Source: Alloprevotella sp.
GTDB lineage: Bacteria > Bacteroidota > Bacteroidia > Bacteroidales > Bacteroidaceae
Assembly (NCBI GenBank): GCA_017476545.1
Contig: JAFUZP010000034.1
Span: 1 to 61,551, forward strand
DNA length: 61,551 nucleotides
Direction: 5' to 3'
Numbering within the stretch: position 1 is the stretch's first letter; every line of letters starts with the position of its first letter. The position numbers and the translations under genes are program-made. The notes below the pieces were generated by a model. That model saw only the letters and a list, made by a program, of their open reading frames with translations, did no database searches and was not told where the DNA came from. Positions 12,985 through 56,899 of this stretch are shown here, in pieces.

Positions 12985-13245
12985 CTACTCCTCAGGATTC
13001 AAGACAAAGGACTGACCCTCGTAGATGCCGATAGCTCCATCGGAGCAGCCGTTCGGGAACTGCGCGTTGGAAAGGAACCCCTCCATCTCCCACTCAACGC
13101 CGTCATCAAAAGAAACAGGGGGCAATTTCGAGAGGAGGTCTTCGGGGAAATTACCATAAAATGTCCCTTTCTGCGCGCACTCGCTCTCAGAGATGAACCA
13201 GTTATACACCGGCAGCGCATTCTTCTCGTTCATTCTTTCGTCCAT
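12985..13245 (-). CDS. Small protein downstream of RNA element copy 1
   Basis: The 86-residue product is acidic and contains two cysteines and no signal peptide or membrane helix. I do not recognise its fold. Its 5' region matches that of the gene at 55932-56507: both have AAAGTATTAAG, one or two bases, ATGGA(C/T)GA and a second ATG four codons later (MDERM here, MDEKM there). The body of the protein (VSFDDGVEWEMEGFLSNA, AIGIYEGQSF) shows at best weak similarity to the C-terminus of that paralogue (DWDEADFLANVEF, VTGLYRDTRVIIG). No second promoter is visible between the RNA element's terminator and this start, so expression may depend on read-through. Confidence 0.7.
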   Translation of the reverse strand: MDERMNEKNALPVYNWFISESECAQKGTFYGNFPEDLLSKLPPVSFDDGVEWEMEGFLSNAQFPNGCSDGAIGIYEGQSFVLNPEE

Positions 13246-13374
13246 TTCTTAATACTTTAATCTGTTTATAATAGGATTGGTTTCTTACCGCTCACACCAT
13301 CCCCAAGCCTCCCCCTCTCGGGGGGACGGGAGGGGGGCTGGAGGGGCTTCGGGGCATGGGCTTGGTTGCACACG

Positions 13375-13590
13375 AAAAAGCGGCGCACCACACCCCACCG
13401 AAGGGGGCGCGATGCGCCGCTCAATGCGTACCCGTATGCTTGTAACTACTTGATTGCCAAGGTGTATGGGGGGGTGATTCGGACACTTCCCGCCCCGTAA
13501 ACACGGGCGAAGCCAGCCTCCGCACCAGCGGAGGCGGCTATACCGATATTATATATACGCGTAAGGTATCATCAAGTTCCTGATTTCCGC
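13375..13590 (-). ncRNA. Structured RNA element, copy 1 (leader or sRNA)
   Basis: The element runs from just after a consensus promoter to a strong Rho-independent terminator. Helices visible on the minus strand are ACTTGAT with ATCAAGT (an enclosing stem), the hairpin GCCTCCGC-TGGT-GCGGAGGC, CCCGT-GTTT-ACGGG, and the terminator GCGGCGCATC with GGTGCGCCGC followed by TTTTT (13375-13420). It contains no convincing open frame. A copy of nearly identical length and about three quarters or more identity by eye lies at 56650-56865. Between terminator and the downstream gene there is a further G/C-rich hairpin (about 13303-13358). It could be a riboswitch-like attenuator, an independent sRNA, or a 6S-type RNA. 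Confidence 0.72.
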
Positions 13591-13592
13591 TG

Positions 13593-13624
13593 CAAAGGTA
13601 GGGAAATATTTCCGGCAGGCCAAG
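13593..13624 (-). promoter_or_regulatory. Promoter of RNA element copy 1
   Basis: On the minus strand the -33 region CTTG (13624-13621) is followed after 20 bp by the -7 box TACCTTTG (13600-13593). Sequence and spacing are the same in copy 2. Confidence 0.8.
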
Positions 13625-24896: not shown

Positions 24897-25019
24897 CAAA
24901 AACAAGACTTACCGCAGCACCACAAAACAGCCAGGAGCAGAGGCTGCGGACACGAGTTCCTGCATCCGCACCAGCGGCCCGCATGGCGGTTCGTTCCTCA
25001 GCCCGAGTGGGATTTTCCG

Positions 25020-25102
25020 TAACCATAGGGTTAGTTCAGCATAACCCTATGGGTAATTTTTTGTAGCCCTATGGGTAGTTTCCCGTAACCATAGGGATAG
25101 GA
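25020..25102 (+). repeat. 22-bp palindromic array B, four units
   Basis: Units start at 25020, 25042, 25064 and 25086, exactly 22 bp apart, with cores TAACCATAGGGTTAGTT, TAACCCTATGGGTAATT, TAGCCCTATGGGTAGTT and TAACCATAGGGATAGGA. A degenerate fifth unit may start at 24998. The array lies between the end of the dnaN-to-PqqD unit and the convergent small metallopeptidase-like gene. Nothing else was seen in 24897-25171. Confidence 0.85.
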
Positions 25103-35310: not shown

Positions 35311-35420
35311 AAAATAACCCTATGGTTAGGAGAAACTACCCCAAGGGGTAAGAAAAACTAACCCTAGGGTTAGGAAAAACGCACCATAGGGATAAGAGAA
35401 ACCTGCCCATCGGAAAGACA
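35311..35420 (-). repeat. 22-bp palindromic array C, five units
   Basis: Five units start at 35311, 35333, 35355, 35377 and 35399, exactly 22 bp apart; the last is degenerate. Read on the minus strand they match the orientation of arrays A and B (for example CTAACCCTAGGGTTAGTTT). The array lies between guaB and the small gene at 35495, downstream of the rel operon. Confidence 0.87.
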
Positions 35421-55931: not shown

Positions 55932-56507
55932 CTAGTGAAAGGACGTTAAAATGACATTTATTCCTATAATTACCCGGGTATCCCGATACAGGCCAGTAAC
56001 GTGTACAGGCCCGTCAGCCGCTCCACCAACCCTATTAATGTGAATGAGGGGGTAAGCACAATCGAAATCAACAAACTCCACGTTGGCAAGGAAGTCCGCC
56101 TCGTCCCAATCTGCAGGTAAGCCCGAGACCTGCGGTCCCCAAGGTCCGTCCTCTCCCCAGCCACTATATCCAAAACAGCCCCGTGAGTAGGGGGCAGATC
56201 CATTAGGGAGTTCTGCCAGAAAGGAGGTAGACCTGATATCAGCACAAGTGATACCTTCCGGTAAGAGTTCACCACAGGGCGGGTAGCTCCAGGAATACAT
56301 ATCAACTCCTGCGACGATGTTGACGTACACGGGCTCCCCTGACGCCCCGCTCGTCGCCAGCATCCGCTGCGGACCCAGCGGGATGACCTGCATCCAGGGG
56401 CTCACGTACTTCTTCTTACACTCAGCGGGAGCCGCCGCCACGGATTGCGCCTTAAGAGTCTGCGCATCGGCGGGCAGCATGGCGTCCAGTTTCATTTTCT
56501 CATCCAT
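55932..56507 (-). CDS. Small-protein family member downstream of RNA element copy 2
   Basis: The 191-residue protein starts MDEKMKLDAMLPADAQTLK, then has an alanine-rich stretch and KKKYVSPWMQVIPLGPQRML followed by ATSG. This YVSPxMxV...MLATSG pattern is common in short uncharacterised Bacteroidales proteins. A variable C-terminal domain of about 130 residues follows, with scattered Cys, Gly and aromatic residues and a final VTGLYRDTRVIIGINVILTS. The start region and the upstream RNA element are shared with the gene at 12985, and a decayed C-terminal copy follows. There is no Sec-type signal peptide. Function unknown. Confidence 0.72.
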   Translation of the reverse strand: MDEKMKLDAMLPADAQTLKAQSVAAAPAECKKKYVSPWMQVIPLGPQRMLATSGASGEPVYVNIVAGVDMYSWSYPPCGELLPEGITCADIRSTSFLAELPNGSAPYSRGCFGYSGWGEDGPWGPQVSGLPADWDEADFLANVEFVDFDCAYPLIHINRVGGAADGPVHVTGLYRDTRVIIGINVILTSFH

Positions 56508-56649: not shown

Positions 56650-56865
56650 AAAGCGGCGCACCACACCCCTCCGAAGGGGGCGCGGTGCGCCGCTCAATGC
56701 ATGCGTATGTATCTATAACTACCTGATTCCCAGAGCGTATGGGGGGGTAATTCGGGCACTTCCCGCCCAGTAAATACGGGCAAAGTCAGCCTCCGCGCAC
56801 GCGGAAGCCGACATACCTATATTATATATATACGCGTAAGGCATCTTCAAGTCGTCGTTTACGGC
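56650..56865 (-). ncRNA. Structured RNA element, copy 2 (leader or sRNA)
   Basis: It matches copy 1 (13375-13590) over its whole length, with indels totalling only about 2 bp. Helices on the minus strand are ACTTGA with TCAGGT, GCTTCCGC-GTGC-GCGGAGGC, and the terminator stem GCGGCGCACC with GGTGCGCCGC (56653-56693). The U-run after the stem is TTTGTGT, weaker than TTTTT in copy 1. About 140 bp separate its end from the downstream gene. No open frame is conserved between the two copies inside the element. Confidence 0.72.
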
Positions 56866-56867
56866 TG

Positions 56868-56899
56868 CAAAGGTAGGCAAATCCATCCACACGGGCAAG
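56868..56899 (-). promoter_or_regulatory. Promoter of RNA element copy 2
   Basis: CTTG (56899-56896), 20 bp, and TACCTTTG (56875-56868) on the minus strand, as in copy 1. Nothing further could be supported in 56900-57148. Confidence 0.8.

Follow-up and report, generated by a model that had tools for sequence, protein, structure and literature searches.

Two minus-strand regions of the window (the whole stretch of 61,551 nucleotides that was analysed) align with each other along their full length (82% over 228 nt). They belong to a repeated unit, whose order is a promoter, a 41-codon reading frame, a GC-rich hairpin approximately 23 nt after the frame, and a gene. In copy 2, all on the minus strand, we identified the promoter, TTG-N20-TACCTTTG, at 56868..56898, an intact 41-codon leader reading frame closed by TAG at 56719..56844, the terminal hairpin at 56653..56695 and a gene of a variable protein family (55932..56507), encoding 191 amino acid residues with the KKKYVSPWMQVIPLGPQRMLATSG N-terminal motif. 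Copy 1 (13376-13592, also minus strand throughout) is a decayed unit: the same promoter pattern (TTG-N20-TACCTTTG, 13593..13623) and a terminal hairpin with TTTTT (13375..13421) are present, the leader frame (13446..13569) has no start codon and misses two bases, its remainder being open to TAG, and the family gene (12985..13245, 86 amino acid residues) has lost the conserved N-terminal motif and retained the C-terminal one. Hairpin and gene are separated by a GC-rich spacer element (13285..13365), for which 31 matches were counted across the genome, 11 additional ones being 96–99% identical over 75–81 nt.

The first-pass annotation had described these regions as a duplicated, structured RNA with its own promoter and a strong terminal stem-loop. 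Promoter and stem-loop are in fact found in both copies, the G.U differences quoted between them are present in the sequence, and both regions fold better than 200 of 200 dinucleotide shuffles (z −3.8 and −6.2). The regions are indeed repeated, but not twice, as the genome has 40 copies. Besides the copy number, the reading frame inside the element and the loss of the N-terminal part in the gene after copy 1 had been overlooked.

All copies come from a single, metagenome-like genome (1.98 Mb, 46 contigs, 80% complete), in which the search gave 42 matches, corresponding to 40 copies, a second piece that is only partial and a match to the hairpin in reverse orientation. With 40 copies in the genome, chance is excluded as the cause of the similarity between the two window regions. 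The copies are 72–92% identical to copy 1, the mean identity of the leaders is 0.80 (approximately 20% of positions differ), and the promoter, TTG-N-TAnnTTTG, is present in 40/40. Many contigs end inside or beside units (C4, C10, C12, C14, C15, C27, C41, C42 and C46); apparently, assembly is disrupted by the repeats, so that more copies may exist than were counted. We also observed tandem arrays of the ACCNNNNGGT palindrome, with a 22-nt period, in the window (25018-25100 and 35314-35400) and upstream of 14 of the 40 leader copies. A three-site pattern of this palindrome has 108 matches in the same genome (registers overlap in this count), none in a reversed control and none in 40 relatives; a stricter count (exact 14-mers, one mismatch), which preceded the use of a looser motif with fixed spacing, gave at least three sites in four of the 40 copies.

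By sequence comparison, the element is species-restricted among the genomes searched. A covariance model of the leader, built from 37 copies and run on its own genome and 57 others of the genus, gave at least 40 matches in the former (162.7 bits for the weakest among the matches listed) and four matches of 20.8–23.3 bits in four of the latter, which were taken as chance. A leader-peptide profile (36 rows) hit one of 58 genomes, namely the source genome, 44 times, and the search of 60 relatives for the element returned one 26-nt match only. When this profile and the N-terminus of the variable proteins were searched against genome contigs, a set from which the source genome was possibly excluded, pattern matches were obtained, none of them confirmed. 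A known phage or plasmid origin was rejected, the copy 2 leader having no blastn match in phage and plasmid collections; for the leader peptide, tblastn retrieved nothing from phages, and no relative was confirmed among viral contigs.

Bacteroidales-1/6S RNA, previously raised as a possible identity, did not hold. At gathering scores, Rfam returned a tRNA only for the whole window, and with relaxed limits both copies gave matches far under the families' cut-offs, Bacteroidales-1/6S not being among them; the genome has its own, separate Bacteroidales-1 RNA (C32:17623-17799, 100 bits). Bacteroidales-1 RNA (RF01693) resembles the element in being free-standing in appearance, of similar size, from the same order and with its own promoter, but matches neither window copy. 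No description of the element was found in the literature searched, mostly from outside subscription journals (PMC11697453 and PMC2864571 among it).

The leader frame spans 123 nt, i.e. 41 codons (MPYAYIYN[N/I]GIAASA.AEAGSARIYGAGSARITPP.AL.IK), followed by TAG, and its two ends contain conserved residues (for instance, MPYA.IY and GSARITPP). It is intact in 37 of the 40 copies (two have 38 and 39 codons and one begins one codon upstream), and broken in window copy 1, in the copy at L035 (a run of 20 C) and in the second copy at L036, where it continues past the usual stop; an extra copy found with the profile (C18:80733) has one in-frame TGA. Substitutions have created no stop in 35 full-length copies, compared with an average of 25.1 of 35 frames open in neutral runs and all 35 open in three of 1000 such runs, the copies having been selected for full length, which favours an open-frame result. 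The dN/dS of the frame is 0.50 (neutral mean 0.79–0.92), with 0.7–2% of neutral runs equally low. Nevertheless, some observations run counter to coding: 32 of 35 copies have an open frame in antisense, and dN/dS values of 0.56 and 0.49 were obtained for a second forward frame and an antisense frame, respectively (36 rows, of which one is a duplicate). The frame also contains indels, with lengths of one, two and thirteen bases. Codons 2–8 show no synonymous change and conservation extends beyond the stop, which makes an additional constraint at the nucleotide level likely in these parts. We consider this moderate evidence for purifying selection on the frame, which is probably a leader peptide; neither Pfam nor NCBIfam contains a family for it.

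A hand-drawn structure of 40 pairs was evaluated over 37 of the 40 copies, excluding the C-run copy and two that are truncated at contig ends. Of its cells, 95.3% are paired; double changes affect 10 pairs, compared with 3.1 (sd 1.4) in shuffles, and covariation scores 0.119, compared with 0.100. None of 500 shuffles attained any of the five measures, slid versions being much lower; these statistics are inflated by relatedness, and a structure drawn from the same sequences favours itself. In the free RNAalifold fold, double changes occur in four of 44 pairs. The terminal hairpin is the best supported part (98.6% paired), and its variants, mostly G.U on the minus strand, rule out an RNA from the plus strand. 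Together with the promoter in every copy, they agree with the earlier prediction of a transcript from the minus strand that has a promoter of its own and carries a conserved hairpin. The earlier reading of the strand from G.U pairs is sound for the terminal hairpin. Helices 1 and 2 are located within, or at the margin of, the probable coding sequence, and therefore pairing in the inner helices is inseparable from coding among the paralogues of one genome. Only the terminal hairpin is a clear RNA-level feature; much of the presumed structured RNA is a probable reading frame. At least five T within the 9 nt after the hairpin are present at 19 of 38 hairpins, and therefore half of them are poor intrinsic terminators. 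Several alternative complementarities in the leader are conserved, none of which was singled out as an antiterminator.

A gene of the variable family is located on the same strand, at most 500 nt after the leader, at 35 of 44 leader matches, which supports the earlier argument that a cis leader accompanies related protein genes; of the remaining nine, four are no more than 240 nt away from the end of a contig. The N-terminal profile of the family has 48 matches in this genome (35 with a leader, six within approximately 105 nt of a contig edge and seven without a leader) and five weak ones in four of 57 others. Hairpin-to-gene spacers have 40–176 nt, seven of them only 40–59 nt, in the 35 units with a downstream start found, a set that includes three decayed or cut genes and is not identical to the 35 leader-gene pairs; a promoter-like site was sought in these spacers and found in none of the 35. 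In Pfam and NCBIfam, the variable proteins retrieved a single chance NCBIfam listing far under the cut-off, and the copy 2 protein had no match by sequence among solved structures.

The flanking genes vary between units and, leader-overlapping frames aside, only a HU-HIG gene recurs in at least three loci. It follows the variable gene at L011:4996-5436, L028:5085-5519, L036:11570-11992 and L040:5077-5517 (Pfam PF18291 in the four) and was detected by tblastn at L027:4923-5333, with short relics in L009, L019, L020 and L030. Together with the promoter type, the HU-HIG genes suggest that the organism is a member of Bacteroidota. One leader copy lies before an unrelated gene of 208 amino acid residues (L018:4026-4700), ClpP-type protease-like by eye, and another (L022:3055) before a phosphatase-like gene with a mere relic of the family start. 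A DUF805b RNA (RF02914, 44 bits, cut-off 35.6) is present at L037:396-430, directly before the start codon of a leader-less variable-family gene. Frames of 55–92 amino acid residues in three other species of the genus (L054, L055, L057 and L059) have a similar KxYxxPxxxV...LAxS motif and are perhaps an older, simpler relative of the variable-family N-terminus.

We hypothesize that the element is a cis-acting, attenuator-like 5' leader of a species-specific, dispersed paralogous family of approximately 40–48 members, a reading to which we assign a probability of roughly 0.5 (0.52). In leader-peptide attenuators, such as the leaders of trp-like operons, a promoter, a short reading frame and a hairpin precede the gene. 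The same succession is observed here; the element differs in having approximately 40 dispersed copies instead of one, and in that about half of its hairpins are without a good T tract. A run of one regulatory codon was sought in the per-codon table of the leader frame and none was found, the nearest feature being three Tyr codons within positions 3–7.

The main rival to the cis leader is a multicopy family of trans-acting small RNAs similar to FopS, in which an RNA of approximately 215 nt would end at the hairpin and pair with distant mRNAs, the neighbouring gene being a passenger or a target. The FopS family of Bacteroides thetaiotaomicron comprises 14 paralogous sRNAs (intergenic, antisense or in 3'-UTRs) that act in trans via a single-stranded seed, share the R1 seed with GibS, bind RbpB and repress translation (PMC11697453). 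The element resembles FopS in its many paralogous copies per genome, its canonical Bacteroidales promoter (here 40/40) and its terminal hairpin, and paralogous sRNA families with canonical promoters are on record in the phylum (PMC11697453); the structure that exceeds shuffles and the copy before the unrelated gene at L018 would also fit. On the other hand, the element has 40 copies, mostly just before members of a single gene family in the same orientation, and an internal reading frame, and whereas FopS consists of a single-stranded 5' stretch and a terminator hairpin, the hairpin here comes after approximately 150 nt that contain an open frame as well as several conserved pairings. The strict position before one gene family (35/44), spacers down to 40 nt without a further promoter-like site, the poor T tracts at half of the hairpins and the joint evolution of leader and N-terminus (see below) also count against a trans-acting RNA, which we regard as unlikely.

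The N-terminus of the variable proteins, KKYVKPxMQVFPLGCGLLAxSG-like, has a mean identity of 0.55, compared with 0.25 for the C-termini (32 proteins). Distances between leaders correlate with those between N-termini (Mantel r 0.42, 0/5000, 32 genes) and less with those between C-termini (r 0.17, 168/5000, 32 genes), and N- and C-terminus distances hardly correlate with each other (r 0.10, 335/5000). Therefore, the 5' module appears to have travelled together and the C-terminal part much less, although faster C-terminal change alone would also lower the correlation. The near decoupling of the C-termini would equally suit a dispersed repeat homogenised by recombination (gene conversion or recent cassette duplication), whose inner part would be non-regulatory beyond the promoter; so would the restriction to one species among the genomes searched, the location of units among unrelated genes, the decay of some of them and the spacer element, 96–99% identical at 11 further places over 75–81 nt. 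We find this explanation less likely still, given that promoter, frame and hairpin persist in nearly all copies despite a leader divergence of approximately 20%, and that the changes in the hairpin mostly preserve G.U or Watson-Crick pairs. Least likely is that the function resides in the 41-residue peptide, as a small protein produced alongside the variable protein, the hairpin only separating or stabilising cistrons: the frame conserved in 37 of 40 copies, the conserved residues at its ends and the T tracts, poor at half of the hairpins, are consistent with it, but the peptide has no match in Pfam, NCBIfam or the other genomes searched, and the absence of synonymous change in codons 2–8 and the conservation beyond the stop point to a nucleotide-level constraint too.

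If the element is a cis leader, its control would be attenuator-like: the gene would be expressed only if RNA polymerase gets past the hairpin, and the progress of the ribosome along the leader peptide would influence how often this happens. Ribosome-coupled control is the most economical version because the reading frame is present. As leader and N-terminus evolved jointly and the C-termini are nearly decoupled, the system looks, from these sequence distances, like a repertoire of differing proteins under a single shared control element. The complete proposal, in which a translated, ribosome-sensing leader gates 40–48 dispersed units, each with a 5' module and an exchangeable C-terminus, as a bacterial diversity system with shared control at the RNA level, is tentative.

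Four genes of the family that lack the element (C1:45572, C27:37739, C29:16726 and C42:32757) are preceded by a second leader, here termed type II, a rod-like RNA of approximately 240 nt (L016:1905-2150, minus strand; also L083, L084, L037, L098-L131 and L141-L145), with its own promoter and an intrinsic terminator with a true T tract. Both leaders precede variable-family genes and have their own promoter and a terminal hairpin, whereas their sequences are unrelated; type II also shows strong covariation. With a seed from C29, blastn gave matches in 20 of 41 genomes: its own, those of 18 of the 24 congeneric species besides it, and a more distant one, whose match looked spurious on inspection. 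Among 36 sequences extracted, two were set aside and eight had no landmarks; in the 26 used, a variable helix has 7–10 bp in 22 and 5–6 bp in four, and scores 9.36 on average, compared with 5.64 (sd 0.29) for permuted partners (0/5000). RNAalifold of 16 sequences gave double changes in 10 of 46 pairs; a pseudoknot formed by a helix X/X' was considered and dropped, since the alignment fold nests that helix in the rod. Within the order, the type II model matched 32 of the 198 genomes and 28 of the 151 genera sampled, its own genome included, with more than 100 bits in 15 genomes and near 25 bits for the weakest. Rfam had no match to the shared part of the type II leader in the loci scanned. In relatives, several of the genes after this leader resemble, by eye, BspA-type leucine-rich-repeat surface proteins, and others do not.

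The comparison of units has revealed a second leader RNA that is order-wide, carries compensatory changes and is without an Rfam match in the loci scanned, and the element itself illustrates how easily structured RNAs and short reading frames are confused with one another. At least 40 loci devoted to one leader-controlled hypervariable family are unusual for a 2-Mb genome, and the shared leader would be one handle on when, and how many, members of the family are expressed.
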